A stretch of 53,626 nucleotides of DNA from Devosia sp. 66-22 (GTDB taxonomy: Bacteria; Pseudomonadota; Alphaproteobacteria; Rhizobiales; Devosiaceae): positions 183,121-236,746 of the forward strand of contig MKUZ01000008.1 of the NCBI GenBank assembly GCA_001899065.1. Direction: 5' to 3'. Under the pieces are notes generated by a model that worked only from the letters and a program-made list of their open reading frames with translations, did not search any database and was not told where the DNA came from. Each line of letters starts with the position of its first letter. The stretch's first letter is position 1. Below are positions 24,698-53,626 of this stretch, piece by piece. Made by a program: the position numbers and the translations under genes.

Positions 24698-24734
24698 CCC
24701 GTCCGCAATGCACCCCTGACTAGTTCAAGCAACA

Positions 24735-24768
24735 GGCTCGCCCTCCGTATGTGGAGCGCGGGCCTTTT
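24735..24768 (+). terminator. intrinsic terminator at the host-phage border
   Basis: GGCTCGC pairs with GCGGGCC (one U-G), an inner CTCC/GGAG stem closes loop GTATGT, and TTTT follows. It would stop transcription entering the phage from the tRNA-Leu promoter. Confidence 0.65.
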
Positions 24769-24777
24769 CTCGCTCTC

Positions 24778-24796
24778 GATCAATCCACTGTCGCAT
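24778..24796 (+). repeat. intergenic ATCCAC motif, copy 1
   Basis: GATCAATCCACTGTCGCAT. Member of a four-copy family of 19-bp intergenic motifs in the phage (others at 27636, 33703 and 43615). No known role. Confidence 0.4.
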
Positions 24797-24825
24797 AGAT
24801 ACTTGATCGTGCATTGATCGTCCGC

Positions 24826-24942: not shown

Positions 24943-24960
24943 GATTACCCCTCCCCCTAA
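24943..24960 (+). promoter_or_regulatory. phage RNA polymerase promoter, copy 1 (tandem)
   Basis: GATTACCCCTCCCCCTAA. Best match to the six-copy consensus; the predicted start is A24960. First of two promoters in tandem, 26 bp apart, ahead of the RNA polymerase gene, which suggests autoregulation. Confidence 0.75.
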
Positions 24961-24968
24961 GCGCTCGC

Positions 24969-24986
24969 AATTTCCCCTCCCCCTAA
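24969..24986 (+). promoter_or_regulatory. phage RNA polymerase promoter, copy 2 (tandem, variant)
   Basis: AATTTCCCCTCCCCCTAA, differing from the consensus only by T for A at the position equal to -13. Lies 66 bases before the RNA polymerase start codon. Confidence 0.65.
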
Positions 24987-25051
24987 GCCCCTGCGGTTCC
25001 ACCTAACAACTAGTTGGGCGGGCCTCGGCGGGGCGTCTCCGAAGGACCCCA

Positions 25052-27637
25052 ATGTCTGAGATCACCAACGCCCTCTTTGCGTCCACGCACGGCTGCCTCC
25101 CCATGGAGCATCCTCAGTGGGAGCGTCAGCTCGAACTCGAAGAGGAAATGCGGTCGGCCGGCATCGCGCGCTTCCGCGACCAGCTCGAAGAGTACCGGAA
25201 CCGGCATCAGGAGAGCCAAGGCGCTGCCGCCCGCCGCCTGATGGTTCACGCCCATGAGGGGGTGGTCGAGGGGCTCAAGGCGTTCTTCGCTGAGGCCAGC
25301 TCGGGGAAGGCGGGAGCGAAGCACACGGCCATCAAGTACCTTGCGGAGGTCGATGTGGACGTAGCCGCTCACCTGACCCTGCGCACGCTCCTGGACACCG
25401 TGAGCCTCCGCTCCAAGCTCACCCCGGTGGCCATCCGTATCTCCTCGCTGATCGAGGACGAGTTGTACTTCGACACCTTCAAGGACACGGACGAGTTCGC
25501 CTACAATCGCGCCCGTACCAAGATCACCGAGCAGTCGCAGAACCCAACCTACCGCAAGCGCGTCATGTCCAAGCATGCCCGGAACAAGGGCGTAGAGTGG
25601 GCCGAGTGGCCCGCTGACGTGCGCGTGAAGGTGGGCGTGAAGCTGATCGAGATCGCCGTTGAGCGCACCGGCCTGTTCGAGCTGGTCCGCAACTCCGAGG
25701 GGGTCAACAACACCCAGCTATACGTGGTCGCAGCGCCCGAGACGCTGGAGTGGATGAGCACCGAGAACGCCCGCTTGGAGCCGCTCTCGCCCGTCTATCT
25801 GCCCACCCTTGTGCCGCCCCGCCCGTGGACCAGTCCGAAGGCTGGCGGGTACTGGTCGGGCAGGGTGCGCCACCTGCGCCTCGTGAAGACCGGCAACATG
25901 CCCTACCTCGCGGAGCTGGAGAACTGCGACATGGGCGAGGTCTACTCGGCGGTCAACGCCATGCAGGAGACCGCGTGGACCATCAACCGCAAGGTCCACG
26001 ATGTGATGGTCGAGCTTTGGGACAATCAATCCACCATCGCAAGCATCCCGCAGGCCGAGGACCTCCCGCTCCCCGAGAAGCCCCTATGGCTGACCCCTGA
26101 AATGAAGACCGAGGACATGACCCCGGCCCAGGTGGGGGAGTTCCAGAAGTGGAAGTCCTCGCGGACCTCGGTCTACGAGGCCAACGCCCGCGCCGTGTCT
26201 AAGCGGATGCAGTTCGGGCGGATGCTGTGGGTGGCGAACCGGTTCAAGGATGAGCCGGAGTTCTTCTTCCCGCACCAACTCGACTTCCGGGGCCGGGTCT
26301 ACGCCGTGCCGCTCTTCCTCCACCCGCAGGGCAACGACGCCGCGCGGGGCCTGCTGACGTTCGCCTCCACGGTCCCCATCGGGGACGAGGAAGGGGCGCG
26401 CTGGCTGGCCATTCACGGGGCAGGGCTGTGGGGCGTAGACAAGGTGGGCATGGATGCCCGCGTGCAGTGGGTCCTCGACAACGAGGAAGCCATTCTCGCC
26501 AGCGCCCGCAACCCCACCGACAACCGCTTCTGGGCCGAGGCGGAGAAGCCGTGGCAGGCGCTCGCGTTCTGCTTCGAATGGCTGGGGTTCCACGAGCAGG
26601 GGTTCGCCTACGAGAGCCACCTGCCGGTCCAGATGGACGGCACCTGCAACGGGCTCCAGAACTTCTCCGCCATGCTGCTCGATGAGGTCGGGGGCAGGGC
26701 GGTGAACCTCGTGCCCGGTGACCAGCCGAACGACATCTACCAGACGGTGGCGGACGTGCTGGTCAAGAAGCTGGAGGCAATCGCCGCCACCTGCCTGCTG
26801 CCGCTGGTCGAGCGGGAGATCAAGGACAAGCAGACCGGTGAGTGGAAGACCGTCATGGTCGAGAGCGATGGGTCGATGGCGCGCAAGTGGCTGGCCCGAG
26901 GCATCACCCGCAAGACCACCAAGCGGCCCGTGATGACGCTCGCCTACGGGGCAAGCCAGTTCGGGTTCAAGGAACAGGTCTACGACGACACGGTGACGCC
27001 GTGGAAGATCGAGGCCGGCGACGCCTTCCCGTTCGAGGGCACTGGCTTTGCCGCCGCTGCCTTCCTCGGGGGCCTCATCTGGGAATGTGTGGGGGAGGTC
27101 GTGGTCGCCGCTCGCGGGGCCATGGACTGGCTCCAGAAGGTGGCCGTTGCCGCGTCCAAGGAACGGCTCCCCGTGGTGTGGACTACGCCGACCGGCTTCA
27201 AGGTTATGCAGGAGTACACGACCAGCGAGCAGAAGAAGCTCGACCTCACGTTCCAGAAGGTCCGCCTCCAACTCCGCCTGGACACCTCGACCAGGACCAT
27301 CGACAAGCGGCGGCAGTCGTCGGGCATTAGCCCCAACTGGGTCCACTCCATGGACGCGGCGCACATGCAGAAGACCGTCCTCCGCTCCCACGCCGAGGGC
27401 ATCCGCTCGTTCTCCCTCATCCACGACAGCTACGGCACCCATGCGGGCAATAGCTGGGCGCTCGCCCAGTACCTCCGTGAGGAGTTCGTTCGCATGTACA
27501 CCGAGCACGATGTTCTCGCTGAGTTCCGTGAGGAGATCGCCATGGCGTTGCCGGGGGGCACGGCGCTCCCCGAGCTACCGCCGAAGGGGCAACTAGACCT
27601 CTCTCAGGTCCTCCACTCGCCCTTCTTTTTCGCCTGA
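25052..27637 (+). CDS. T7-like single-subunit DNA-directed RNA polymerase
   Basis: 861 aa (T7 has 883). The ATG at 25052 follows GAAGGA. Catalytic residues align with T7 Asp537, Lys631, Tyr639 and Asp812: D529 in QMDGTCNGLQNFSAML, K624 and Y632 in TKRPVMTLAYG, and D792 in LIHDSYGT. The specificity strand aligns without gaps from TTPTGF through KKLDLTF and puts D731 at T7 Asn748, K729 at Arg746; one residue is missing just after, before VRLQ. The C-terminus PFFFA matches the essential FAFA-type end of T7. Likely expressed first from a host promoter, then from its own tandem promoters. Confidence 0.97.
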   Translation: MSEITNALFASTHGCLPMEHPQWERQLELEEEMRSAGIARFRDQLEEYRNRHQESQGAAARRLMVHAHEGVVEGLKAFFAEASSGKAGAKHTAIKYLAEVDVDVAAHLTLRTLLDTVSLRSKLTPVAIRISSLIEDELYFDTFKDTDEFAYNRARTKITEQSQNPTYRKRVMSKHARNKGVEWAEWPADVRVKVGVKLIEIAVERTGLFELVRNSEGVNNTQLYVVAAPETLEWMSTENARLEPLSPVYLPTLVPPRPWTSPKAGGYWSGRVRHLRLVKTGNMPYLAELENCDMGEVYSAVNAMQETAWTINRKVHDVMVELWDNQSTIASIPQAEDLPLPEKPLWLTPEMKTEDMTPAQVGEFQKWKSSRTSVYEANARAVSKRMQFGRMLWVANRFKDEPEFFFPHQLDFRGRVYAVPLFLHPQGNDAARGLLTFASTVPIGDEEGARWLAIHGAGLWGVDKVGMDARVQWVLDNEEAILASARNPTDNRFWAEAEKPWQALAFCFEWLGFHEQGFAYESHLPVQMDGTCNGLQNFSAMLLDEVGGRAVNLVPGDQPNDIYQTVADVLVKKLEAIAATCLLPLVEREIKDKQTGEWKTVMVESDGSMARKWLARGITRKTTKRPVMTLAYGASQFGFKEQVYDDTVTPWKIEAGDAFPFEGTGFAAAAFLGGLIWECVGEVVVAARGAMDWLQKVAVAASKERLPVVWTTPTGFKVMQEYTTSEQKKLDLTFQKVRLQLRLDTSTRTIDKRRQSSGISPNWVHSMDAAHMQKTVLRSHAEGIRSFSLIHDSYGTHAGNSWALAQYLREEFVRMYTEHDVLAEFREEIAMALPGGTALPELPPKGQLDLSQVLHSPFFFA

Positions 27638-27654
27638 TCTATCCACCATCGCAT
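27636..27654 (+). repeat. intergenic ATCCAC motif, copy 2
   Basis: GATCTATCCACCATCGCAT; begins within the RNA polymerase stop codon. 16 of 19 bases match copy 1. Confidence 0.4.
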
Positions 27655-27689
27655 GTGTCGGAGGCGGTTTTAGGCCGCAACCATTGGCC

Positions 27690-27707
27690 GATTACCCCTC
27701 CCCCTAG
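27690..27707 (+). promoter_or_regulatory. phage RNA polymerase promoter, copy 3
   Basis: GATTACCCCTCCCCCTAG; predicted start G27707, followed by CTTCTCACAAA, which resembles the initially transcribed bases of other copies. Drives the small early genes. Confidence 0.75.
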
Positions 27708-27731
27708 CTTCTCACAAATCGGAGCGTCCCC

Positions 27732-27872
27732 ATGGACACCTCGCTGACCTCGGCATTGGGCCGAGCCATCGCCCTCTGGTCGCAGGGCAAATCCATCCCC
27801 ATGACCCTCGCCGCCGAACTGATGGCCGAGGGCTACGACATTCCCTCGCTCGAACGGAGGCACCGCAAATGA
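27732..27872 (+). CDS. small early phage protein, unknown
   Basis: 46 aa (MDTSLTSALGRAIALWSQGK, ending SLERRHRK). Starts 25 bases after a phage promoter, with GGAG eight bases ahead of the ATG. Predicted to be one amphipathic helix pair with a basic end; no cysteine and no membrane segment. It overlaps the next gene's ATG by 4 bases, so it is read as translated. No family recognised; position resembles the short host-takeover genes of T7. Confidence 0.55.
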   Translation: MDTSLTSALGRAIALWSQGKSIPMTLAAELMAEGYDIPSLERRHRK

Positions 27873-28409
27873 TGAAGCTCCACGAAGCGTGGGAGCTGGG
27901 CCTCCGGTTCCCCGAAGCGGCCCGCGTGCGTTCCCTCATGTCGATGCTGGGCGTGGTCGGCCACCGGCTACGTCATTGCCGGAGGCTACTTCCGCGACAA
28001 GATACACGGCGTCCCCTTCAAGGACGTTGACGTGTTCGTCATTGGTGATGTGCCGGTCGCGGAGGCGGACCCGTGCCACCGATACGACCTTGAGAACGCC
28101 GCCACGTTTCTCCTTCCGCCAGCCCGAGAGGGCGGCGATCAGGTCGAGGTCAACGTCATCCGCTTGCGGCACGACTTCTCGTTCGCCGAGGTGCTCGGCC
28201 GCATGGACATCGGCCTGTGCCAACTTGGTCTCGACGCGGACGGCCACCTCTGGGCAACCGAGGAGTGTCAGCGGGACGTGGCCAAGCGCACTATCACGGT
28301 GCTCTTCCCGCCCGAGAGCGACCGGGACTACGACCACCTGCGCCGCGTGCAGGTAAAGTACCCCGACCACGAAGTGGTGTGGACCACCTACGCCCCGGTG
28401 GCGAGCTGA
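27869..28409 (+). pseudogene. frameshifted nucleotidyltransferase-like early gene
   Basis: The reading starts MMKLHEAWELGLRFPEAARV in one frame and, near 27958-27963, must add one base to continue as TGYVIAGGYFRDKIHG then VPFKDVDVFVIGD. GG-x2-RD and D-x-D at this spacing match pol-beta type nucleotidyltransferases (CCA-adding enzyme-like). Left alone, the first frame turns Arg-rich and stops at 28030; the second has no good start codon before GTG 28032, past the active site. Either a disrupted gene, a programmed frameshift, or a sequence error. It ends overlapping the next start (TGATG). Confidence 0.6.
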
Positions 28410-28612
28410 TGTGTAATCCCGCCCCGCTCATAGCCAGCTATCCTGTCGGCCACGCGGTCCTGCGGCCAATGACACTGGTCTCCACCCGCTCGACGCATGC
28501 CGACTGCTGGCGCGTCCCCGATCACACCCCGCCCGAGCCCACCCGATGGGACCGCATCAAGCGGTTCCTCGTGGAGGCGTTCTGGCTCATCCTCTTGGGA
28601 CCCAACCGTTGA
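28409..28612 (+). CDS. small phage protein with a short hydrophobic C-terminal helix
   Basis: 67 aa. The ATG overlaps the previous stop (TGATG). The body is polar and Pro/Thr rich; residues about 52-65 (RFLVEAFWLILLGPNR) form one short hydrophobic helix next to basic residues, possibly a membrane tether. Its stop overlaps the TTG start of the next frame, the translational-coupling pattern seen throughout this early cluster. No family recognised. Confidence 0.45.
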   Translation: MCNPAPLIASYPVGHAVLRPMTLVSTRSTHADCWRVPDHTPPEPTRWDRIKRFLVEAFWLILLGPNR

Positions 28613-28842
28613 CCCACGACGACCACCTCAAGGCCATCGCTACGGCCCAGACCAACAACTCCCTCCATGCCCGCAACGCGCTCGTCTCGCTGTGGGTCAT
28701 GGGGCACCACGTCGAGGCCCTCTTCGCGGACTGCCTGTCGCCCGCTGAGGTGGCAAGTGGGGCAGGGGTCTCGACCGCTCAGGTCTACGCCGCGCTCAGC
28801 GCCCGGCAGGCATACAAGCACGTGCGGGACATTCCGGCATGA
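28609..28842 (+). CDS. small phage protein with a helix-turn-helix-like motif
   Basis: 77 aa from TTG 28609, whose TGA overlap with the previous gene supports this start; an in-frame start at 28546 exists but lies deep inside that gene. The segment LSPAEVASGAGVSTAQVYAA has the spacing of a helix-turn-helix (AEVA..AGVS..QVY), preceded by a long helix (LHARNALVSLWVMGHHVEAL). It could be a small DNA-binding regulator and is the only such candidate in the early region. This is motif reading, not a family match. Confidence 0.5.
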   Translation: MTHDDHLKAIATAQTNNSLHARNALVSLWVMGHHVEALFADCLSPAEVASGAGVSTAQVYAALSARQAYKHVRDIPA

Positions 28843-28991
28843 GGACCGCAGCCTTCCGCCGCCGCTGTGGGGCGTTCAAACGTCCCGCTCGCTTGCTCGC
28901 GGTCTACTCGTGGCTCGCTATGCGCTCCGCGCGCCGCGCCTCCGAACTTGCCGCCGCAGCCGAGGCCAGCGCTCGGGCCGCTCGCGGCTAG
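28839..28991 (+). CDS. very basic small early phage protein
   Basis: 50 aa, ATG overlapping the previous stop (ATGA). The N-terminal half is rich in Arg (MRTAAFRRRCGAFKRPARLL), the C-terminal half is an Ala/Arg/Glu helix. Net charge is strongly positive, which suits nucleic-acid or host-protein binding, but no family is recognised. Last gene before the phage promoter at 28993 and the strong terminator at 29040. Confidence 0.45.
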   Translation: MRTAAFRRRCGAFKRPARLLAVYSWLAMRSARRASELAAAAEASARAARG

Positions 28992-28992
28992 C

Positions 28993-29010
28993 AATTACCC
29001 CTCCCCCTAG
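28993..29010 (+). promoter_or_regulatory. phage RNA polymerase promoter, copy 4
   Basis: AATTACCCCTCCCCCTAG; predicted start G29010. Lies 30 bases upstream of a strong terminator and 81 before the SSB gene. Confidence 0.75.
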
Positions 29011-29039
29011 CTCCGCACAGAGCACCATCCATCCAACCG

Positions 29040-29073
29040 CCCCCGCGCCACCACTGGCCGGGGGTTTTTCTTT
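29040..29073 (+). terminator. strong intrinsic terminator, early-region boundary
   Basis: CCCCCG pairs with CGGGGG and GCCA with TGGC (one bulged C, CCAC loop), followed by TTTTTCTTT. It separates the early genes from the SSB gene, the position of the host-polymerase early terminator TE in T7. The promoter just upstream would let phage polymerase read through. Confidence 0.8.
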
Positions 29074-29090
29074 GCGCACTGCGAGACCCA

Positions 29091-29822
29091 ATGACTGACA
29101 AGAAGAAGCCCCCGAAGATCACCGGCCCCCGGATGGTCTTCAAGTTTCCGAAGCTCAACGAGCCCGACTACGGCTCGAAGGACTACCCGAAGCCCGATGG
29201 CGAGTACTCGACCAGGGGCGTGATGACGGCCGACGACGCCGCGACCAAGGAGTTCATCAAGCAGCTCCAGCCGCTCTACGACGAGGCGCTTGCTGAGGCC
29301 GAGGTGGCGTTCAAGGAACTCAAGGTCGAGACCCGGAAGAAGCTGGGTGGCGTGAAGCCGAACGACCTCTTCACCACCCTGTACGACCAGGAGACCGAGG
29401 AGCCGACCGGCGAGATCGAGTTCAAGTTCGCCATGAAGGCGAGCGGCGTCCGCAAGAAGGGTCCGAAGGCGGGCACCAAGTGGACCATGAAGCCCGACAT
29501 CTACGACGCCTCGGGCAAGCTGCTCGTCAAGGCTCCGTCCATCTGGGGCGGCACGGTCGGCAAGATCAGCTTCGAGGCGTCCCCCTACTTCATTCCGGGG
29601 ACCGGAGCTGCCGGCCTCAAGCTGAGCCTGCTCGGCGTCCAGATCATCGACCTCAAGTCGGCTGGTCAGCGCTCCGCCGCGAGCCACGGCTTCGGTGCCG
29701 AGGACGGCTACACCCACACCGAGACCGTCGAGGACGAGGATGAGGGCGGCTTTGGTGACGAGACGGGCGGTGACGCTTCGGCGGATGCCGGCTCGGCCTC
29801 GGGCGACCAGCAGGAGTTCTGA
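29091..29822 (+). CDS. single-stranded DNA-binding protein, T7 gp2.5-like
   Basis: 243 aa (T7 gp2.5 has 232). The N-terminal two thirds resemble the OB-fold of gp2.5 homologues (RMVFKFPKLNEPDYGS, EIEFKFAMKASG, PSIWGGTVGKISFEASPYF). The last 35 residues are an acidic tail (VEDEDEGGFGDETGGDAS) ending in Phe, as in T7, where the acidic tail and terminal Phe bind DNA polymerase and helicase. In T7 the protein coats ssDNA and promotes annealing. Opens the replication module and overlaps the next gene by one base. Confidence 0.88.
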   Translation: MTDKKKPPKITGPRMVFKFPKLNEPDYGSKDYPKPDGEYSTRGVMTADDAATKEFIKQLQPLYDEALAEAEVAFKELKVETRKKLGGVKPNDLFTTLYDQETEEPTGEIEFKFAMKASGVRKKGPKAGTKWTMKPDIYDASGKLLVKAPSIWGGTVGKISFEASPYFIPGTGAAGLKLSLLGVQIIDLKSAGQRSAASHGFGAEDGYTHTETVEDEDEGGFGDETGGDASADAGSASGDQQEF

Positions 29823-30148
29823 TGGCCGACGAGTTCCTCACCCTTCGCGCGGCCAACGAGCTGCGCATGCAGGAATGGCCGGGCGCTGAGAAGGTCACCC
29901 CGGCCTTCCAGGGCAACGAGCTGGCTGGCGAAGTGGGCGAAGCCTGCAACGTCATCAAGAAGCTGGAGCGTTCGCGCCTCGGCATCGCTGGCTCCAAGGA
30001 CACCATCGAGCACCTCGCTGAGGAGCTTGCTGACGTTGTGATCTGCGTGGACCTCATCGCTTCAACCTACGGCATCGACCTCTGGTCCGCCGTGAAGTCG
30101 AAGTTCAATGGGACCTCCCACAAGATCGGCGCGACGGTGTTCCTGTAG
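29822..30148 (+). CDS. MazG-like nucleotide pyrophosphohydrolase
   Basis: 108 aa. The four-helix metal site is visible as NELAGEVGEACNVIKKL and HLAEELADVVICVDLIA, the ExxE...ExxD pattern of all-alpha NTP pyrophosphatases. Phage members are thought to adjust NTP or alarmone pools during infection. It sits between SSB and endonuclease I with one-base overlaps at both ends, so it belongs to the replication operon. Confidence 0.85.
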   Translation: MADEFLTLRAANELRMQEWPGAEKVTPAFQGNELAGEVGEACNVIKKLERSRLGIAGSKDTIEHLAEELADVVICVDLIASTYGIDLWSAVKSKFNGTSHKIGATVFL

Positions 30149-30546
30149 TGGGCTGGCCCTCCCGGAGCAATCCGGGGGTGGTCCATGGCTACCGGAGCGG
30201 GCTCGAAGACAAGGTTGCGAAGCAGCTCGAAGACCTCGGCATTGAGGTCAGGTTCGAGAGCTTCAAGATCGAGTACGAGGTGCCCGCCCGGAAGGCCAAA
30301 TACACCCCGGACTTCCTCCTCCCCAACGGCCTCATCATCGAGACCAAGGGGAGGTTCCTCACCGCCGACCGGCAGAAGCACATTCTAGTGAAGGCCCAGC
30401 GGCCCGAGCTGGATATCCGCTTCGTGTTCTCGAACAGCCGAGCGCGCATTTCCAAAACCTCGAAGACCACATACGCGGACTGGTGCGAGAAGCACGGCTT
30501 CAAGTTCGCGGACAAGGTCATCCCCCTTTCCTGGATCAAGGAATGA
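30148..30546 (+). CDS. endonuclease I (Holliday junction resolvase), T7 gp3-like
   Basis: 132 aa (T7 149). The GTG start shares a base with the previous stop. Active-site residues match T7 Glu20, Asp55, Glu65 and Lys67: Glu in YRSGLEDKVAKQL, then YTPDFLLPNGLIIETKGRF giving Asp, Glu and Lys. In T7 the homodimer resolves branched DNA and helps break down host DNA. Tight spacing with MazG and the amidase keeps T7 order (gene 3 then 3.5). Confidence 0.93.
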   Translation: MGWPSRSNPGVVHGYRSGLEDKVAKQLEDLGIEVRFESFKIEYEVPARKAKYTPDFLLPNGLIIETKGRFLTADRQKHILVKAQRPELDIRFVFSNSRARISKTSKTTYADWCEKHGFKFADKVIPLSWIKE

Positions 30547-31208
30547 CCACCAAGAACAGGGCCAGCACCGACTGGCTCGTGGTCCACTGCTCGGCAACGC
30601 CGGGCACCATGGACATTGGCCGTGCAGAAATCGACCGCTGGCACCGCCAGAAGGGTTGGCTCATGATCGGCTACCACTTCGTCATCCGCCGCAACGGCAA
30701 GGTGGAGATCGGTCGCCCCGTGGACACCATCGGTGCCCATGTCGAAGGTCACAACTCCGTCTCCATCGGCATCTGCATGGTGGGCGGCACGGACGCCAAG
30801 GGTGCCCCCGAGGACAACTTCACGAGTGCCCAGTACGCGGCCCTTGCGGAGCTGTTGCGGGACCTCAAGGCGAAGTACCCCCGCGCCAACATCTGCGGCC
30901 ACCGCGACTTCTCCCCTGACAAGAACAAGGACGGCAAGATCACGCCGAACGAGTTCGTCAAGGCGTGCCCCAGCTTCGACGTTCACGACTGGCTTGTGGC
31001 TACCGCCGTACTGCCCGTGACGCCCCCGAAGGTGAACCCGCCGAAGACCGCCAAGCAGGGCGGCTGGGCGTACCACCAGATCGTCGCAGGCGACACGCTC
31101 TTCTCGCTGGCCCGCACCTACGCGGTCAGCGCGGACACCATCGTGGCCCTCAATCCGGGCGTCATCACGAAGGCCCTCAAGGTGGGCGCGGGCATCCGCG
31201 TCCGCTGA
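30543..31208 (+). CDS. N-acetylmuramoyl-L-alanine amidase with C-terminal LysM
   Basis: 221 aa; the ATG overlaps the endonuclease stop. Residues 1 to about 140 align with T7 lysozyme gp3.5, which cleaves peptidoglycan and also binds and slows T7 RNA polymerase: VVHCSATPGTMDIG, RWHRQKGWLMIGYHFVIRRN, SIGICMVGG, GHRDFSPD and KACPSFDVHDW, with the zinc ligands (His, His, Cys) and the catalytic Tyr and Lys kept. Unlike T7 (151 aa), a LysM domain follows (YHQIVAGDTLFSLARTYAVS to IRVR), binding cell-wall glycan. Likely the endolysin. Confidence 0.92.
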   Translation: MTTKNRASTDWLVVHCSATPGTMDIGRAEIDRWHRQKGWLMIGYHFVIRRNGKVEIGRPVDTIGAHVEGHNSVSIGICMVGGTDAKGAPEDNFTSAQYAALAELLRDLKAKYPRANICGHRDFSPDKNKDGKITPNEFVKACPSFDVHDWLVATAVLPVTPPKVNPPKTAKQGGWAYHQIVAGDTLFSLARTYAVSADTIVALNPGVITKALKVGAGIRVR

Positions 31209-31219
31209 CGCCACGGGCT

Positions 31220-31237
31220 GATTACCCCTCCCCCTAG
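31220..31237 (+). promoter_or_regulatory. phage RNA polymerase promoter, copy 5
   Basis: GATTACCCCTCCCCCTAG; predicted start G31237, followed by CGTCTCACGAA. Heads the primase-helicase to kinase gene run. Confidence 0.75.
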
Positions 31238-31248
31238 CGTCTCACGAA

Positions 31249-31275
31249 CCCTCGGCTCTCGGGCCGGGGGCTTTC
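31249..31275 (+). terminator. leader hairpin with T-rich tail
   Basis: CCCTCGGC pairs with GCCGGGGG (one U-G) around loop TCTCGG, followed by CTTTCGTCGTT. It begins 12 bases after the predicted phage promoter start, repeating the promoter-then-terminator layout at 28993/29040. Confidence 0.5.
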
Positions 31276-31321
31276 GTCGTTCCAGCGCTCCGGCGCACTC
31301 AACAACTGAAACGGAACTCCA

Positions 31322-31501
31322 ATGCCTCTCAGCAACTCCAAGCGCCCGGTCAAGACGACCGATGAGCGCGTCCTTCACCCGACCAAGGGCTACCGCAAGG
31401 TGTCCGTGAAGCGGGGCCGCGCCGCCACCGCCATGCAGGCCATCCTCCGGGGTGGCATGGCCGTCGATCTCCGTTCCCTCCAGCAGTTCATCCGAGGCTG
31501 A
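31322..31501 (+). CDS. small basic phage protein, unknown
   Basis: 59 aa (MPLSNSKRPVKTTDERVLHP to LQQFIRG). The central segment is basic (KGYRKVSVKRGRAATAMQ) and the end is a single predicted helix. First gene behind the promoter at 31220. There is only a weak Shine-Dalgarno (ACGGAAC). It stops 7 bases before the next ATG. No family recognised. Confidence 0.5.
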   Translation: MPLSNSKRPVKTTDERVLHPTKGYRKVSVKRGRAATAMQAILRGGMAVDLRSLQQFIRG

Positions 31502-31508
31502 CACAACC

Positions 31509-31934: not shown

Positions 31935-32062
31935 CCTTCGCCGCCTTCATGACCTCGGTCGTGCAGATCACGGCCAGCTTCATGTGGGGCCTCACCGTGC
32001 TGGCCATCGTGCTGTCTCTCTGCATCCTCGCATCGGGCGCGTGGGCTGACCGCTTCAAATGA
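31931..32062 (+). CDS. small single-pass membrane protein
   Basis: 43 aa, ATGA overlaps at both ends. Residues about 12-36 (ITASFMWGLTVLAIVLSLCI) form one transmembrane helix, with a short basic end (WADRFK). Translationally coupled to the primase-helicase. No family recognised. Confidence 0.5.
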   Translation: MTFAAFMTSVVQITASFMWGLTVLAIVLSLCILASGAWADRFK

Positions 32063-33699
32063 CTGACGACGACAGCTCCTTCATCGGCAAGGAGCCATGC
32101 CCTGAATGCGGGTCGAGGGACAACCTCGCCCGCTACTCGGACGGCCACGGCTACTGCTTCGGCTGTGGCTACCGAGAGCGGGGCGATGGCTCCGGTGCCA
32201 ACCCCATCACCACCAAGAGGACCTCCATGGAAGACGCCATCGACGGCGAGTTCAAGCCGCTCGCCAAGCGCGCGATCTCCGAGGAGACGTGCCGCAAGTT
32301 CGGATACACGGTGGGCACCAAGCGGGACGGCACTACGGTCCAGATCGCCCCGTACTACGACGCAGACGGCAACGTGGTCGCCCAGAAGACCCGTGACGCC
32401 GACAAGAACTTTTCCGTCATTGGCTCCCTCAAGACGGCGCTGCTCTTTGGGCAGAACCTCTGGCCCTCGGGCGGTCGCCGCGTGACGGTGATCGAGGGCG
32501 AGATCGACACCATGTCCGTCTCCCAGGTGCAGGGCAACAAGTGGCCGGTTGTGGGCATCCCAAACGGCGCACAGGGCGCGAAGAAGGCCCTCGCTCGGCA
32601 GCTCGAATGGCTCAACACCTTCGAGGAAATCGTCCTCATGTTCGACATGGACGAGCCAGGGCAGGAGGCCGCGCGAGAGTGCGCGCCACTCTTCCCCGCT
32701 GGGAAGGCGAAGATCGCGTCCCTGCCGCGCAAGGACCCCAACGAAATGCTCGTGGCTGGTGAGGGCGACCTCATTGTTCGGGCCATCTGGGATGCCAAGG
32801 TCTACCGGCCCGATGGCATCGTCACCCTCGCGGACATCAAGGCGGACATTCTCAAGCCCGTCGAGCTGGGCCTCCCGTGGTGGTCCGAGACCCTCACGAA
32901 GCTGACCTACGGACGCCGGCACGGCGAGCTGTATGCGGTCGGCGCGGGTACCGGCATCGGCAAGTCCGACTGGCTGAGCCAACAGGTCATCTACGACCTC
33001 ACCGAGCTGGACCAGAAGGTCGGCGTCTTCTTCCTCGAACAGCAGCCCCGAGAGACCGGTCAGAGATTGGCGGGCAAGCTCGCCGGCAAGCGGTTCCACG
33101 TTCCTGATGGGAGCTGGACCAGCGAGGAGCTGGCTGCCGCCGTGGACCTCCTCATCAGCAGTGGAAAGCTGTTCCTATACGACAGCTTCGGCACCGCCGA
33201 CTGGGAGGTCATCCGCGAAGCCATGCGGTTCCTCAACAAGTCCGAGGGCGTCCGCATCTTCTACCTCGACCACCTCACGGCTCTGGCCGCGACAGCCGAG
33301 GACGAGCGCAAGGCCCTCGAAGTCATCATGGCTGAGCTGGGCGGGCTCGTGAAGGAACTGGACATCATCCTCACCATCGTCAGCCACCTCGCCACCCCCG
33401 AAGGGAAACCTCACGAGGAAGGCGGGCGGGTCATGATTAGGCACTTCAAGGGCAGCCGAGCGATTGGCTTCTGGTGTGCCTTCATGTTCGGCCTCGAACG
33501 TGACCAGCAGGCCGAGGACCCGATGGTCGCATCCACCACCACGTTCCGCGTCCTCAAGGACCGCTACACGGGGCAGGCGACGGGCGAGGTGATCTACCTC
33601 GGCTACGACCCCGACACCGGCAGGCTCTTCGAGACCACCAAGCCCGCTGAGCCCGGCAACGCCCACGGCTTCGTCCCCGAAGACGACGCCCCCTTTTGA
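32059..33699 (+). CDS. primase-helicase, T7 gp4-like
   Basis: 546 aa (T7 566). N-terminal zinc ribbon with C14, C17, C33, C36 for primer-site recognition, then a TOPRIM primase (VIEGEIDTMSVSQVQG; FDMDEPGQ), then a hexameric 5'-3' helicase with Walker A GAGTGIGKS at about residue 295 and YLDHLTAL as Walker B. The C-terminus EDDAPF is acidic with terminal Phe, as in T7, where it docks on DNA polymerase. An internal ATG at 32227 (Met57) just after the zinc ribbon has its own Shine-Dalgarno AAGAGG, mirroring T7's short 4B form. Confidence 0.95.
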   Translation: MTDDDSSFIGKEPCPECGSRDNLARYSDGHGYCFGCGYRERGDGSGANPITTKRTSMEDAIDGEFKPLAKRAISEETCRKFGYTVGTKRDGTTVQIAPYYDADGNVVAQKTRDADKNFSVIGSLKTALLFGQNLWPSGGRRVTVIEGEIDTMSVSQVQGNKWPVVGIPNGAQGAKKALARQLEWLNTFEEIVLMFDMDEPGQEAARECAPLFPAGKAKIASLPRKDPNEMLVAGEGDLIVRAIWDAKVYRPDGIVTLADIKADILKPVELGLPWWSETLTKLTYGRRHGELYAVGAGTGIGKSDWLSQQVIYDLTELDQKVGVFFLEQQPRETGQRLAGKLAGKRFHVPDGSWTSEELAAAVDLLISSGKLFLYDSFGTADWEVIREAMRFLNKSEGVRIFYLDHLTALAATAEDERKALEVIMAELGGLVKELDIILTIVSHLATPEGKPHEEGGRVMIRHFKGSRAIGFWCAFMFGLERDQQAEDPMVASTTTFRVLKDRYTGQATGEVIYLGYDPDTGRLFETTKPAEPGNAHGFVPEDDAPF

Positions 33700-33702
33700 C
33701 CT

Positions 33703-33721
33703 GACCCATCCACCATCGAGA
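33703..33721 (+). repeat. intergenic ATCCAC motif, copy 3 (divergent)
   Basis: GACCCATCCACCATCGAGA, four bases after the primase-helicase stop. Shares CATCCACCATCG with its relatives. Confidence 0.3.
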
Positions 33722-33726
33722 AGATC

Positions 33727-34425
33727 ATGACCCGAGACACCGTGGTCACGGCCATTGACGCCGTGCAGAACCTTGCCGCCCGCGCTGAGGAACTGGAACG
33801 CCATAGCATCATCCTCGCGCAGGGCACCGCCACCCAGGCGGCGACCATCCGCAAGCAGGCCGACACCATCAGCCAGCTCCGCAACGAAGTGGGGATGGAA
33901 GCCTACAACGTCGAGTTCCTCAAGCGGCAAGGCCGCAAGACGCGCTCGAAGACCCGCGCCCTCCGCGACAACTGCAAAGCTCAGGCGAAGAAGATCGCAG
34001 AGCTGGAGGCACGACTGGCTGCGAGCGCCAACCGCATCGACGATGACCGCAAGACAATCGAGCGTCAGATCATCGAGCGTCACAACCTCGCCCTCGAACT
34101 GGTGACGACCAAGAAGTACCTCGACAACGCTCTACACAGCCGTGAGCTACCGGAGATCACCGTACTCCACACCAGCCATCCGGTGGTGAAGTTCGCTGAG
34201 CACGTCGCCGTCCCGTCCTTCGAGCGCTTCCTCGCCGTCGATTGGCAGGAGCCGGTGAAGGTAACCGAGGTCCGCCTCCGCACGCTGGCCTTCGGTGCGC
34301 ATATCCCCGCGATGCTCGCCCGCAGCGCGCCGGTCGAGGAAGTCACCAGCACGGTGATGAACCTCCTCAGCGAGACCATGCGCGTCGAGGTTGAGCGGGC
34401 CGTCCGAGAGTACCAGCGTGGCTGA
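33727..34425 (+). CDS. phage coiled-coil protein, unknown
   Basis: 232 aa from the ATG 27 bases after the primase-helicase stop. Residues 15-135 are strongly heptad-like (LAARAEELERHSIILAQ, IRKQADTISQLRNEV, AKKIAELEARLAASANR), forming a long basic coiled coil. The C-terminal third is a mixed globular segment (FERFLAVDWQEPVKVTEVRL, VTSTVMNLLSETMRVEVERA). No catalytic motif is seen. It lies between helicase and polymerase genes, so a replication accessory role is possible but unproven. Confidence 0.7.
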   Translation: MTRDTVVTAIDAVQNLAARAEELERHSIILAQGTATQAATIRKQADTISQLRNEVGMEAYNVEFLKRQGRKTRSKTRALRDNCKAQAKKIAELEARLAASANRIDDDRKTIERQIIERHNLALELVTTKKYLDNALHSRELPEITVLHTSHPVVKFAEHVAVPSFERFLAVDWQEPVKVTEVRLRTLAFGAHIPAMLARSAPVEEVTSTVMNLLSETMRVEVERAVREYQRG

Positions 34426-34813
34426 GTTCATCAACGAACTCCGCGTCACCCGCATCGACCGAAAGCTCCGACGCTACCGCCTCGACGCGCCATTCACCGT
34501 GCGGAAGACGGGGCACCGTGGGACCTCGGTCATGCGGGACCTCGTGGTGGTCCCCTCGGGGTTCCTAACGGACGGCGCTTCGGTGCCCTCGTGGCTCTGG
34601 GGCGCAATCCCTCCAGATGGAATGTCGTTCAAGGCGGCGGTCGTTCACGACTGGCTCTGCCTGCTCATCGATCAAGGGCGGCCACACCCCGGTTTCGTCA
34701 CTCGGCGGCGGTGCGACGACTTCTTCCTAGAACTGCTGGAGGAGAGCCGTGTGCCCGCCATCCAACGGTGGGCCATGTACCTCGCCGTGCGCTGGTTCTC
34801 CGACCGCCTCTGA
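34418..34813 (+). CDS. DUF1353 family phage protein
   Basis: 131 aa from GTG 34418, overlapping the previous stop by 8 bases; an in-frame start at 34391 is possible. The family hallmark is clear: VVPSGFLTDGASVPSWLWGA followed by KAAVVHDWLC. DUF1353 occurs widely in phages and prophages. The conserved D, H-D and buried W residues suggest a small enzyme-like fold, but no activity is established that I know of. It lies immediately before the DNA polymerase leader hairpin. Confidence 0.85.
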   Translation: MAEFINELRVTRIDRKLRRYRLDAPFTVRKTGHRGTSVMRDLVVVPSGFLTDGASVPSWLWGAIPPDGMSFKAAVVHDWLCLLIDQGRPHPGFVTRRRCDDFFLELLEESRVPAIQRWAMYLAVRWFSDRL

Positions 34814-34836
34814 CCACCCCCAACACATCAACCGAA

Positions 34837-34856
34837 GTGGCCCCTTCGGGGGCCGC
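34837..34856 (+). other. UUCG-capped stem-loop before the DNA polymerase gene
   Basis: GTGGCCCC pairs with GGGGCCGC around TTCG, a very stable tetraloop. No T-run follows, so an RNA processing or stability element is more likely than a terminator. It lies 24 bases before the start codon. Confidence 0.5.
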
Positions 34857-34879
34857 TCTAGCTACTCCAGCGAGAGGGC

Positions 34880-36883
34880 ATGACCCGATATGCATTCGAC
34901 ATCGAGACCGATGGACTGCTCGATGACCTGACCAAAGTCCACTCCCTCGTCATCCACGATCTAGACACCGATGAGGTGTGGTCGTGTCACGACGAGAACT
35001 ACCCCGCCGAGCTTGAACGTGAAGATGGTCCGCTGGTCAGCTTCGGGTTGAAGAAGCTGATGGAGGCCGACGAACTGATCGGCCACAACATCATCAAGTT
35101 CGACGTTCCGGCCCTCCAGAAGGTCTACCCGTGGTTCAAGCCTCGGGGCAAGCAGATCGACACGCTGGTGCTGACCCGCCTCATCTACACGATGGTGCAG
35201 CGGCGGCAGGGCTGGGTGTCGCTCGTGGACTTCGATCAGGTGCAAGCCAAGATCGGCAAGTTCCCCGGTCGCCTCATCGGCTCCCACTCGCTCGACGCTT
35301 GGGGCCACCGCCTCGGTGAGTGGAAGGGCGACTACGCCGCCATGATGATCGAGCAGGGGCTTGACCCGTGGGCGTCGTGGAACCCTGAAATGCAGTCCTA
35401 CTGCGAGCAGGACGTTCGCGTCACCACCAAGCTCTACAAGCGCATCCTCTCCGAGAACTACAGCCAGCAGGCCATCGACCTGGAGCTGGAGTTCGCCTTC
35501 ATCATCGCGCAGCAGGAGCGCTACGGCTTCGGCTTCGACGAGGCGGCTGCGGCGGACCTCTACGGGGTGCTCATCAAGCGCCGGCAGGAGATTGCGGAGA
35601 AGCTCAAGGCAGCGTTCCCGCCCGAGGTCATCCGCACGGTCAAGGTGGCGGGGGCCAACAACAAGAAGCTCGGCCGCGTGAAGGGGCAACCCTACACGGT
35701 AGAGAAGGTGGTCGAGTTCAACCCCTCGTCTCGCCAGATGATCGCGGCCCGCCTCAAGGTGCTCGGCTGGGTCCCCACTGAGTTCACCCCCAACGGACAG
35801 GCGAAGGTCGATGAAACCATTCTCTCAGCTTTGCCTTGGCCCGAAGCCAAAGTCCTTGCCGAGCACTTTCTCGTGGAGAAGCGCATCGGGCAGCTCGCAG
35901 AGGGCGACCAAGCGTGGCTCCGACTGGTGCGGCGAGGCATCATTCACGGCGGCGTCAATACGAATGGAGCCGTTACCGGTCGATGCACCCACAGCCGACC
36001 TAATGTTGCGCAAACGCCGGCAGTTGGCAGCCCTTATGGCGAAGAATGTCGAGCGCTCTTTGTTGCGCGACTTGGACGCCTTGTCGGGGCCGACCTCTCA
36101 GGGCTCGAACTCCGTTGCCTCGCTCACTTCATGGCTCGCTTCGACGGGGGCGCTTACGGCGAGGTACTCCTCACGGGGGACGTACATTGGGCTAACGTGC
36201 TCGCTCTTGGACTTGTGCCGGAAGGGACTGCCCGAGACGAAGACCGCCACCCCATCCACAAGCTCTTCCGAGGTGGGGCCAAGACCTTCATCTACGGGTT
36301 CTTGTACGGGGCAGGGGACGCCAAGGCTGGTGAGATCGTTCTGGACATCGCCATGCGCGAAGTCCGCGATGGTCTTGGCCACTCCGTCTTCCTGAAATAC
36401 TTCCCAGCGAAGACCGCTAAGGGCTACATCGAGAACCCCGACGAGGACACCCTCAAGAGGGTTGGTAAGCGGCTCAAGAAGTCGTTCCTCGAAAAGACCC
36501 CCGCCCTCAAGCAGCTCCGCGAGAAGGTCCAGGCAGCCGCCGCACGCGGCTACCTCATCGGCCTCGACGGTCGCAAGCTGTACGTCCGCTCGGTCCACGC
36601 CGCCGTCAACACGCTCCTCCAATCAGCCGGCGCGCTCATCGCAAAGATGGCCACCGTCATTGCCTACCGCAAGCTGACCGCGCTCGGTCACGTCTTCGGC
36701 AGGGACTACGCCCTCGTGGCCCACGTGCATGACGAAATGCAGGTGGACGCACGGGAGGCGCTCGCAACCCTTGTGGGTGAAACGCTGGTCCAATCCATGC
36801 GCGACACCACCGAGGTCTTCAACTTCCGCTGCCCCATCGACGGGGAGTTCAAGATCGGAGCCAACTGGCGTGACACTCACTGA
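34880..36883 (+). CDS. DNA polymerase I-type replicative polymerase, T7 gp5-like
   Basis: 667 aa (T7 704). N-terminal proofreading exonuclease with D7 and E9 in AFDIETDGLL, and GHNIIKFDVPAL and DQVQAKIGKF further in. Family A polymerase motifs: A, GADLSGLELRCLAHF (D405); B, HKLFRGGAKTFIYGFLYGAG with the Tyr that accepts dideoxynucleotides; C, HVHDEMQVD (D618, E619). T7's enzyme uses host thioredoxin for processivity; the thumb region here (about residues 250-330) is hard to judge. GAGAGG precedes the ATG. The gene begins after a UUCG stem-loop. Confidence 0.95.
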   Translation: MTRYAFDIETDGLLDDLTKVHSLVIHDLDTDEVWSCHDENYPAELEREDGPLVSFGLKKLMEADELIGHNIIKFDVPALQKVYPWFKPRGKQIDTLVLTRLIYTMVQRRQGWVSLVDFDQVQAKIGKFPGRLIGSHSLDAWGHRLGEWKGDYAAMMIEQGLDPWASWNPEMQSYCEQDVRVTTKLYKRILSENYSQQAIDLELEFAFIIAQQERYGFGFDEAAAADLYGVLIKRRQEIAEKLKAAFPPEVIRTVKVAGANNKKLGRVKGQPYTVEKVVEFNPSSRQMIAARLKVLGWVPTEFTPNGQAKVDETILSALPWPEAKVLAEHFLVEKRIGQLAEGDQAWLRLVRRGIIHGGVNTNGAVTGRCTHSRPNVAQTPAVGSPYGEECRALFVARLGRLVGADLSGLELRCLAHFMARFDGGAYGEVLLTGDVHWANVLALGLVPEGTARDEDRHPIHKLFRGGAKTFIYGFLYGAGDAKAGEIVLDIAMREVRDGLGHSVFLKYFPAKTAKGYIENPDEDTLKRVGKRLKKSFLEKTPALKQLREKVQAAAARGYLIGLDGRKLYVRSVHAAVNTLLQSAGALIAKMATVIAYRKLTALGHVFGRDYALVAHVHDEMQVDAREALATLVGETLVQSMRDTTEVFNFRCPIDGEFKIGANWRDTH

Positions 36884-37082
36884 CGTTCTCAGCACCGCTT
36901 GGAACAACCCGTTCCGCACCAAGGGCGACTTCGCCCGCATGAACGCCGACCTCGTGGCCATGGCTGCCAGCGACGGCTTCATCACCACCCGCATTGCCAC
37001 CGGCCTCTACGGCAAGTCGTGGCAGATTACCCCGCGCGGCCTCCAGCACCTTCACCGCCTGCGCGGTGAAGCCTCGGCCTGA
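36870..37082 (+). CDS. small phage protein with winged-helix look
   Basis: 70 aa from GTG 36870, overlapping the DNA polymerase stop by 14 bases. Segment MNADLVAMAASDGFITTRIA then YGKSWQITPRGLQHL has the helix-helix-strand shape of a winged-helix 'MarR-like' end (ITPRGLQ). The strand ITPxG is common at the wing of such folds. No partner or DNA site is evident. The call of function is tentative. Confidence 0.5.
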   Translation: MTLTDVLSTAWNNPFRTKGDFARMNADLVAMAASDGFITTRIATGLYGKSWQITPRGLQHLHRLRGEASA

Positions 37083-37105
37083 CCCTCCAACAACCGGAAA
37101 CCATC

Positions 37106-37306
37106 ATGTCCCAAGAGAATGGCGCTGTCATAGCGCTGACTACGCTCGCCCTGTGGTTCGCGTTCATCGCCTTCATCCTCGTCGGCTACTGGATGAACGT
37201 GGCCGATCTCGTCACCGGCAACGGTGGCGATCAGGGCCTCTTTGTCGCCCGCATCGTGGGCCTCGTGTTTGCCCCGCTTGGGGCCGTGCTAGGGGTGTTC
37301 TTCTGA
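37106..37306 (+). CDS. small two-helix membrane protein
   Basis: 66 aa with two hydrophobic helices, about residues 7-30 (AVIALTTLALWFAFIAFILV) and 46-66 (ARIVGLVFAPLGAVLGVFF), joined by a polar loop (DLVTGNGGDQG). It overlaps the next membrane protein's ATG by one base. Could be a phage membrane accessory such as a second holin or antiholin; nothing in sequence decides this. Confidence 0.5.
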   Translation: MSQENGAVIALTTLALWFAFIAFILVGYWMNVADLVTGNGGDQGLFVARIVGLVFAPLGAVLGVFF

Positions 37307-37404
37307 TGCTCACCGCCATTCTTTGCGCACTCAGCTTCATCGTCGGCATGCCGGTGGGCGTCGGCCTGTTCCTCTGGTGGCTCACCTCGGTGCTCGCCCG
37401 ATGA
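37306..37404 (+). CDS. 32-residue membrane peptide
   Basis: A single hydrophobic helix (MLTAILCALSFIVGMPVGVG then LFLWWLTSVLAR), coupled by overlaps to the gene before (TGATG) and the exonuclease after (ATGA). Such overlap on both sides argues it is translated. Function unknown. Confidence 0.4.
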   Translation: MLTAILCALSFIVGMPVGVGLFLWWLTSVLAR

Positions 37405-38189
37405 CCAGAACCCTCCTACTCGACGCGGACGTGATCGCCTATGCGGCGGCGTCCTCGAACGAGAAAGCCATGGAGCTGGAGGGGGGCTACTGGACCTGGC
37501 ACTGCAACATCGACGATGTGAAAGAACAGATCGACGATGAGATCGCAGCGCTGGTGAAGAAGTTCAAAGGCACGAGCTACAAGCTCTGCCTGACGGACAG
37601 CATCGGCAACTTCCGCAAGTCCGTCCTCCCCACCTACAAGGGCAACCGGGCGACGGTGAAGAAACCCGTGGTCCTCAAGCCCATCCGCGACTGGCTGATC
37701 GAGGAGCGGGATGCCTACTTCCGCCCGGCTCTCGAAGGCGATGACGTGATGGGCATTCTTGCCACCGGCACGATGATACCGGGCGAGAAGATCATCGTGT
37801 CGATCGACAAGGACATGAAGACCATCCCCGGCCTCTTCGCCCGTGGCGGCGACGCCAAGGTGGTCCAGATCACCGAGGACGAGGCAAACTACTGGCACCT
37901 CTACCAGACGCTTATTGGGGACACCACGGACGGCTATTCCGGGTGCCCCGGTGTGGGTCCCGTGAAGGCCACCGCTATCCTTAACGGCGTCAAGGCTGAC
38001 GTGGCCGCGTTCGGCGGCGACTTCCTGCCCATCGCGTGGGCCGCTGTCGTGCTCGCCTACGAGAAGGCCGGGCTCACCGAAGCCGATGCCCTCGTCCAAG
38101 CCCGCGTTGCCCGCATCCTCCGCGCCTCCGACTACAACTTCAAGACGAAGGAACCCATCCTGTGGCAACCGCCAAGAACCCCAGCCTGA
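37401..38189 (+). CDS. 5'-3' exonuclease, T7 gp6-like
   Basis: 262 aa (T7 300) from the ATG at 37401. Flap/5'-exonuclease metal ligands: LLLDADVIAYAA, DSIGNFRKSVLPTYKGNR, LEGDDVMGILAT and SIDKDMKTIPGLF. A helix-hairpin-helix-like segment follows (YSGCPGVGPVKATAIL). In T7 this enzyme removes RNA primers and degrades host DNA. It overlaps the next gene by 28 bases. Confidence 0.93.
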   Translation: MTRTLLLDADVIAYAAASSNEKAMELEGGYWTWHCNIDDVKEQIDDEIAALVKKFKGTSYKLCLTDSIGNFRKSVLPTYKGNRATVKKPVVLKPIRDWLIEERDAYFRPALEGDDVMGILATGTMIPGEKIIVSIDKDMKTIPGLFARGGDAKVVQITEDEANYWHLYQTLIGDTTDGYSGCPGVGPVKATAILNGVKADVAAFGGDFLPIAWAAVVLAYEKAGLTEADALVQARVARILRASDYNFKTKEPILWQPPRTPA

Positions 38190-38743
38190 TCGCGCTGTAC
38201 TCTCCAGCGCCTCAGATGGGCAAATCGACGGCCACTCAGCTCCTCACCGAGGGGCTGGGCTACAAGCTCGTCAAGTTCGCCGCTCCTGGCAAAGCCATGG
38301 TGAACATCTTCCTCGCCCAGCTCGGCGTGGACCCACACCTGCGAGAGCTGATGATCGAGGGGAACCTCAAAGAGAAGACCCTTGAGGACTTCGGCTTTGA
38401 GAAGCTGACGCCCCGCTACATCATGCAGACCATCGGCAGCGAGTGGGGCAGGGGGTGCATCGACACCAACCTGTGGACCACCATCGCGGCCCGCAAGGTC
38501 CGCAAGCTGCTCGATGCCGGCCTCCGCGTGGTCATCGACGACATGCGGTTCCCCAATGAGCTGGACCTCGTGCGCTCCATGGGCGGCGAGTGCTGGTGCA
38601 TCCTGCGGCCCGAGGTGGCCTACACGGGCGAACACAAGTCCGAGGGCCTGCTCGACCGGCACCCGTTCGACCGGATGCTCGTCAACGATGGCACCCTCGA
38701 CCAGTTCAACGAGCGACTGCTCGAAGCCATCACCCGCTTCTGA
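38162..38743 (+). CDS. deoxynucleoside monophosphate kinase-like protein
   Basis: 193 aa from GTG 38162 inside the exonuclease end. The P-loop reads YSPAPQMGKST, keeping GKS/T but replacing the usual first Gly by Ser-Pro. IDDMRFPNELDLVRSMGG is the Walker B/LID region typical of phage dNMP kinases, and TIGSEWGRGCIDTNLW is the substrate segment. Would phosphorylate dNMPs for phage DNA synthesis. Last gene before the promoter at 38776, which opens the virion genes. Confidence 0.8.
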   Translation: MATAKNPSLIALYSPAPQMGKSTATQLLTEGLGYKLVKFAAPGKAMVNIFLAQLGVDPHLRELMIEGNLKEKTLEDFGFEKLTPRYIMQTIGSEWGRGCIDTNLWTTIAARKVRKLLDAGLRVVIDDMRFPNELDLVRSMGGECWCILRPEVAYTGEHKSEGLLDRHPFDRMLVNDGTLDQFNERLLEAITRF

Positions 38744-38775
38744 CCGGGGCCGGGGAGGGGCGCTCACCTCTCCCC

Positions 38776-38793
38776 GATTACCCCTCCCCCTAG
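38776..38793 (+). promoter_or_regulatory. phage RNA polymerase promoter, copy 6
   Basis: GATTACCCCTCCCCCTAG; predicted start G38793, only 9 bases before the ATG at 38802, so the transcript would begin with the Shine-Dalgarno GGAGG itself. Opens the late, virion region. Confidence 0.75.
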
Positions 38794-43614: not shown

Positions 43615-43633
43615 GATCTATCCACCTTCGCGT
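43615..43633 (+). repeat. intergenic ATCCAC motif, copy 4
   Basis: GATCTATCCACCTTCGCGT, three bases after the capsid stop. Here GTGGAT follows so ATCCAC can form a small hairpin. Confidence 0.4.
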
Positions 43634-43649
43634 GGATCAACCGCCCACT

Positions 43650-53625: not shown

Positions 53626-53626
53626 C

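Follow-up and report, generated by a model that had tools for sequence, protein, structure and literature searches.

Predicted promoters of a T7-type RNA polymerase in a temperate Devosia prophage, and a polymerase-promoter reading code suggested by covariation

When a single-subunit RNA polymerase gene of the T7 type lies among several copies of a short intergenic motif, it has to be asked whether the motif is the promoter that this polymerase reads. We address this question for a window of 53,626 nucleotides (positions 183,121-236,746 of contig MKUZ01000008.1, hereafter C8, of Devosia sp. 66-22), the end of which is the end of the contig. A sequence-only reading had described there six plus-strand intergenic copies of an 18-bp motif, with at most one core difference, and had taken them as promoters of the encoded polymerase. 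The motif has the form (R)ATTACCCCTCCCCCTA(A/G), and the same six sites were recovered when the window was searched with the pattern ATTACCCCTCCCCCTAR, which starts at 24944, 24970, 27691, 28994, 31221 and 38777, one base after the starts first given since the 18-bp motif includes the leading purine. All six lie outside assigned genes, and five are exact, the copy at 24970 having one mismatch. They are the only matches in the window with up to three mismatches, all on the plus strand, while 100 shuffles gave a mean of 0.05 and a maximum of 1.

The element that carries the motif is split over two contigs, C8 and C9 (L008), and the second holds a seventh, exact copy at 6472-6488, 42 bases 3' of the terminase stop. 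The count of six thus stands for the window and becomes seven for the whole element, with the pattern exact in six of the seven. The full genome was then searched (4.36 Mb in 31 contigs): with up to two mismatches, the seven prophage copies are the only matches (reversed control 0), and with up to three mismatches there are nine, the two added ones being host sites with three mismatches each (reversed control 3). At up to two mismatches the genome thus agrees with the earlier remark that no copy was seen in the host part.

The motif is one-stranded, repeated and intergenic, spans about 17-18 bp and ends near +1, as is expected of a T7-type promoter. With the last motif base taken as +1, the predicted start is a purine in all seven copies (G in five, A in two). 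ATTA or ATTT at -16 to -13 falls in the AT-rich block that such promoters have at -17 to -13, and the block at -12 to -7 that the polymerase loop reads is represented by the covariation of -12 to -8 described below. The likeness to the T3 promoter that had been pointed out holds for ATTA, for CCCTC and for C at -5, which stand at the same places, and the T3 polymerase shares the D-R-Q loop discussed below; it does not hold for A at -1, as two T3 promoters contain TTAACCCTCACTAAC, with C at that position. A pattern after the start, C-(T/G)-C-(A/G)-C-(A/G), is indeed present in the four copies at 24944, 27691, 28994 and 31221 and absent in that register from the others, and its place is to be corrected from +6 to +11 to +5 to +10. 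The melting region at -4 to -1 reads CCTA, which is unusually GC-rich and counts against the promoter reading. It has two A/T out of four, while 39 of the 42 polymerase-motif pairs described below have three or four (four in 26, three in 13); it is rare among these relatives, in line with the earlier remark that it is unusual, without being unique, since one other pair has two (L062) and another has one (L035).

The element itself, which the first description had left more general, is a temperate T7-like prophage in tRNA-Leu, with its att site between the integrase and the polymerase gene. The T7-type polymerase, the T7 gene order, a tyrosine integrase (1.2e-12) and a MarR-like regulator (2e-9; C9 12053-12559) are all present, as in LUZ100/Paadamvirus-like temperate phages. 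It also resembles these phages in having tRNA-Leu as its integration site and a tRNA-Leu gene of its own next to the integrase. Besides those of Table 1, there are Pfam matches to a tail fibre protein and a terminase. The polymerase has conserved catalytic residues (D529, K624, Y632, D792), and its best match among solved structures is the T7 polymerase. A search of the whole genome with a tRNA-Leu pattern gave exact matches only in the split host copy and in the phage copy, with two further matches of one mismatch each that differ in the anticodon region. By the pattern used, then, the phage gene appears to be alone in having that anticodon arm and being intact, and the phage tRNA-Leu probably replaces the broken host gene. 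Such a replacement has been reported for TRX32-1 and its kin (PMC8631192).

Two side observations can be made on the state of the prophage. A large late gene (50011-53625) is cut by the contig border, and window positions 53600-53626 and C9 positions 1-95 carry an IS-like repeat end of the GTCAGTTCTC type, which looks as if an insertion sequence interrupts this gene near its 3' end. The gene at 27870-28409, after promoter copy 3, has stops in its first part and is read there in two frames, as if frameshifted. A consensus terminator scan returned 13 sites in the region against 12.3 expected, and the hairpin between the att core and the promoters is not among them; consensus sigma-70 scans were not above chance (2 against 1.8 and 1 against 1.4).

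Table 1. Features of the prophage (window positions unless C9 is given; 5' and 3' refer to the plus strand)
Feature	Position	Strand	Remarks
Host tRNA-Leu(TAG), 5' part	24654-24698	+	broken by prophage; joined flanks give an 85-nt tRNA-Leu(tag) by ARAGORN
att core TTTAGGTTCCGTC, 13 bp	24686-24698; C9 13877-13889	+	window copy within tRNA-Leu 5' part
Terminator-like hairpin, then TTTT	24735-24768	+	fold of 51-nt stretch, -22.6 kcal/mol; between att core and promoters
Second element (candidate repressor site)	24781-24798	+	3 mismatches; 5' of promoter copies 1 and 2
Predicted promoter copy 1	24943-24960	+	5' of polymerase gene; predicted start 24960 (A)
Predicted promoter copy 2	24969-24986	+	forms a tandem pair with copy 1; one mismatch; predicted start 24986 (A)
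Single-subunit T7-type RNA polymerase	25052-27637	+	861 aa, open frame; PF00940 1e-112, PF14700 3.4e-22
Second element	27639-27656	+	2 mismatches; one base 3' of polymerase stop
Predicted promoter copy 3	27690-27707	+	3' of polymerase gene; predicted start 27707 (G)
Predicted promoter copy 4	28993-29010	+	5' of SSB gene; predicted start 29010 (G)
SSB	29091-29822	+	Pfam; T7-type
MazG-like protein	29822-30148	+	Pfam
Endonuclease I	30148-30546	+	Pfam
Amidase with LysM	30543-31208	+	Pfam
Predicted promoter copy 5	31220-31237	+	3' of amidase gene; predicted start 31237 (G)
Helicase-primase	32059-33699	+	Pfam
Second element	33706-33723	+	4 mismatches; 6 bases 3' of helicase-primase stop
Family A DNA polymerase	34880-36883	+	Pfam
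Exonuclease-like	in 37323-38189	+	Pfam match below cut-off
dNMP kinase	in 38036-38743	+	Pfam
Predicted promoter copy 6	38776-38793	+	5' of connector region; predicted start 38793 (G)
Connector	39302-40855	+	Pfam
Scaffold	41100-41888	+	Pfam
Major capsid	42634-43611	+	Pfam
Second element	43618-43635	+	3 mismatches; 6 bases 3' of capsid stop
Terminator-like hairpin with T run	43650-43675	+	3' of capsid gene; consensus scan, longest stem of its 13 sites
Nozzle	44277-46643	+	Pfam
Phage tRNA-Leu(TAG)	C9 12562-12645	-	beside integrase

The best matches to the polymerase among phage records are those of TRX32-1, LUZ100, RHEph01 and RHEph21, which are 50-52% identical over the alignment. Their core words were found without any prior pattern, and each phage has its own motif family, with 8 copies in TRX32-1, 7 in LUZ100, 7 in RHEph01 and 6 in RHEph21, all on the plus strand and none on the minus strand (up to three mismatches). 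The proposed search of related phages thus yields plus-strand versions of the motif at similar gene borders. RHEph01 has counterparts for six of the seven prophage places, two of them 5' of the polymerase gene, the others 3' of the polymerase, amidase and terminase genes and 5' of the connector region; the seventh pair lies in both genomes between the polymerase and SSB genes, at different borders. Two copies 5' of the polymerase gene are also found in TRX32-1, and one clear and one weak copy in RHEph21; these three phages share with the prophage an integrase 5' of the polymerase gene. They differ from it in their cores (CCCCTCCCTTAA, CCACCCACTTAA and CCCCTCACTTAA) and in a TTAA-type melting region. 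An att site in tRNA-Leu and a phage tRNA-Leu are reported for these Rhizobium phages, which belong to Paadamvirus, and more than 70% nucleotide identity to RHEph01 is quoted as the criterion of this genus (PMC8631192). Because its polymerase is only 50-52% identical to theirs, we do not claim membership for the prophage. The distance from the T3/T7 class is larger, the polymerases being 38% identical; that class has an A/T-rich melting region and, in the stretches fetched, an annotated E. coli promoter and no phage promoter just 5' of the polymerase gene.

LUZ100 connects the motif to mapped promoters. Its record holds eight phage-specific promoters, phi1 to phi8, annotated from ONT-cappable-seq, and seven of them contain the ATTACCACACAG motif, phi5 being without it. 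The seven features, of 50 bp each, end at motif positions 17 to 19, which we assume to be near the mapped start, as the record itself does not say so. Five promoters are described as coming directly from start-site data and three from motif search with manual inspection (PMC10134795); the text of PMC10138996 is without LUZ100 data. Like the prophage, LUZ100 has a 17-bp plus-strand motif starting with ATTACC, a promoter 5' of the polymerase gene, copies 3' of the polymerase, amidase and terminase genes, and a MarR-like regulator, a tRNA-Leu and an integrase that lie next to one another. Unlike the prophage, it has a single copy 5' of the polymerase gene instead of two, a polymerase (about 51% identical) with L at 758, an A at -8, and, 5' of the capsid gene, the promoter phi7, to which the prophage has no counterpart. 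With the polymerase alone as query, none of 20 IMG/VR candidates was a relative, and among 397 genomes of the order nine had a match including the window's own, the other matches being at most 44% identical and left aside.

The question of which protein reads the motif was approached through covariation. We compared 90 loci, 85 of which came from contig and viral scans (5 genome-contig loci and the best 80 of 562 viral ones), the others being the four phages and the window. A motif was assigned in 58 of them and none was trusted in the other 32; with T7, T3 and SP6 this makes 61 pairs, and 42 after merging near-identical ones. For each motif base, 796 alignment columns were ranked by excess mutual information. 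T7 position 748 ranks first for -12, -11 and -10, position 755 for -9, and position 758 for -8, and it is the 755 column that holds the counterpart of R756 because these loops are shorter. T7 residues 748, 756 and 758 touch those promoter bases, and these contacts were already known. The same five first ranks were obtained when only those motifs were used that had been fixed before the full loop set was seen (32 pairs and 797 columns; also 29 pairs without the three from the literature). For the motif positions -16 to -13 and -7 to +1, no obvious contact residue stood out when the columns were ranked. In a leave-one-out comparison, where cases without another example were scored wrong, a residue rule was right more often than the nearest polymerase among the 42, with 37 against 27 at -11, 34 against 28 at -9 and 34 against 23 at -8. 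When two polymerases more than 60% identical have different residues at 758, their -8 bases are different as well in 37 of 50 pairs, as against 1 of 49 pairs with the same residue; for 748 and -11 the corresponding counts are 20 of 23 and 3 of 76. In a set of 18 polymerases less than 65% identical, 758 and the counterpart of 756 keep their first ranks, whereas 748 drops to rank 3, 12 and 10 for -11, -12 and -10.

Compared in this way, the 42 pairs suggest a simple residue-base reading code. At 748, D or E goes with C at -11 (20/20) and K with G (17/18); at 756, R goes with C at -9 (20/20) and L with T (10/11); at 758, Q goes with T at -8 (8/9), R with C (7/8), K with C (5/7), Y with G (11/12) and L with A (3/3). 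The corresponding residues of the prophage polymerase are D731, R738 and Q740, and this D-R-Q loop is paired with CCCCT at -12 to -8 in the window and in four relatives, and with ACCCT in T3. The code can be followed within the nearest clade (71-75% identical), where E-R-Q goes with CCCCT (L031), E-R-R with CCCCC (L036) and A-R-R with GAACC (L034). Very different promoters are seen in other relatives, namely L037 22-5457, L066 and those of L080-L108 with an assigned motif: one group has the promoter GGTTGCAC and polymerases in which 748 is K and 758 is Y, and the promoter of L037 reads ATTAGGTGACAGTATAG, close to the SP6 consensus.

Confinement to the prophage, the versions found in relatives, the mapped LUZ100 promoters and the covariation with the loop all support the original proposal, and as a whole we hold it very likely that the T7-type RNA polymerase encoded by the prophage uses this motif as its promoter. 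It could also be that the promoters are true by descent and that the regulon is no longer used, the prophage being in decay, as the repeat end within the late gene at the contig border and the stops near 27870-28409 would invite one to think. We find this unlikely, since six of the seven copies are exact, the polymerase gene is open and so are the regulator, integrase and terminase frames, and a defect of the virion alone would not silence promoters.

A second dispersed element of 18 bp has to be considered before turning to readings in which another protein binds the motif. This element, CTATCCACCATCGCATAG, is partly palindromic, is common to LUZ100, and has a variant, CAATCCACCNGTGAATAG, in the Rhizobium phages. 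With up to three mismatches it has ten matches in the genome, nine in the prophage (all plus) and one in the host, against two for the reversed control. With up to four mismatches, all matches are again on the plus strand, at 26027 and at the four sites of Table 1 in the window, and on C9 at 7841, 8045, 8969, 9730, 11106, 11721 and 12012. The four phages have 11, 10, 7 and 10 plus-strand and 5, 4, 6 and 4 minus-strand matches at this threshold, some of the latter being the same palindromic site read twice, and the reversed pattern gives 0 or 1. Only the better matches carry weight, because counts at six mismatches are not above shuffles (15 against 18.5 in the window; 27 against 16.6, with a maximum of 28, in LUZ100). 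In all four phages the element lies 0 to 6 nt 3' of the helicase-primase and capsid stops, and it is also seen 3' of the polymerase stop in LUZ100, weakly in RHEph01. Two LUZ100 copies fall within annotated host promoters, P1 and P2, where they lie in the 17-base stretch that separates TTGACA from TAAGAT; another LUZ100 copy has exactly the sequence of the prophage copy at 8045 of C9. MarR sites flanking the polymerase promoter were reportedly described by Boeckman et al. in 2022, and that the MarR-like protein of the prophage binds the second element is our guess. We regard it as conceivable, at somewhat less than an even chance, that the element bound by this regulator silences the T7-type regulon in the lysogen. 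Its copies within early host promoters, upstream of the polymerase gene and, for the most part in one orientation, shortly 3' of the polymerase, helicase-primase and capsid stops would be the sites of this control, and those past the stop codons could block elongation, as stoperators do in mycobacteriophage L5. Among the papers listed by our literature searches, some of them judged by title, there was nothing relevant on the second element or on stoperators in this phage family. The element may be more novel than the promoter set.

The promoter motif could in turn be the binding site of another phage protein, such as a repressor or activator, rather than of its RNA polymerase. Like some operators, it occurs at scattered intergenic sites and is specific to the prophage, which also encodes a MarR-like regulator. 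This is very improbable given the single orientation, the T3-like layout, the counterparts in mapped LUZ100 promoters and the covariation with the polymerase loop, and the second element is the better operator candidate. More improbable still is a replication, packaging or RNA-level element that looks like a promoter only, which would suit copies near gene-block ends, and T7 promoters can also prime replication, but which leaves both the covariation with 748, 756 and 758 and the LUZ100 mapped starts unexplained. It was the covariation of polymerase and motif that led us to drop the readings of the motif as operator, iteron or RNA element.

If the motif is the promoter of the prophage polymerase, the specificity loop (D731, R738, Q740) would read CCCCT at -12 to -8, and transcription would start at the last base of the motif, or close to it, and proceed rightwards. 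Most likely the polymerase would transcribe its own gene as well as the middle and late genes. The tandem pair 5' of the polymerase gene could then act as a self-amplifying switch, and the remaining copies would drive replication genes, structural genes and the end of the late region. In a lysogen, host DNA (tRNA-Leu), the terminator-like hairpin and the candidate repressor site at 24781 would end up upstream of the polymerase gene, and the MarR-like regulator and the integrase would be moved to the other end of the prophage. Integration between the integrase and the polymerase gene would thus sever the latter from upstream transcription, and the regulon would stay silent until leaky host transcription yields some polymerase. 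For LUZ100 a model has been put forward in which host transcription leaks past the terminator behind the integrase and self-amplification follows, with MarR-like repression in the lysogen (PMC10134795). The layout of the prophage fits this proposal, to which it would add the separation at the att site.

The kind of motif, the architecture and the idea of self-amplification are already in print for relatives, and the RHEph01 motif had been predicted (PMC11475235). What is new here is the exact promoter of the prophage, which an exact-motif search found in no IMG/VR contig, records very near the window being possibly excluded from that search. With this prophage the temperate T7-like phages gain what is, by sequence comparison, a clean polymerase-promoter pair; their switch between dormancy and lysis is still a hypothesis (PMC10134795). 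The reading code would be worth testing because promoter prediction is a named limit on the use of new phage polymerases (PMC11475235). There, the RHEph01 polymerase and its predicted motif ATTACCCCTCCCTTAAGCAAAG make up pair R21, one of 26 pairs examined in a cell-free assay. Eight of the 26 worked, the six working pairs named in the text do not include R21, and none of the 16 whose DNA-binding domain is less than 30% identical to T7 was active. R21 may therefore have failed, a possible counter-result.

A last observation concerns two stretches, at 29040-29075 and 31250-31275, which come soon after copies 4 and 5 of the promoter. Inspected by eye, both are rich in GC, look like hairpins and have T runs. 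These two stretches are not among the sites of the terminator scan. In LUZ100 a terminator is annotated at the corresponding position, which follows phi4.
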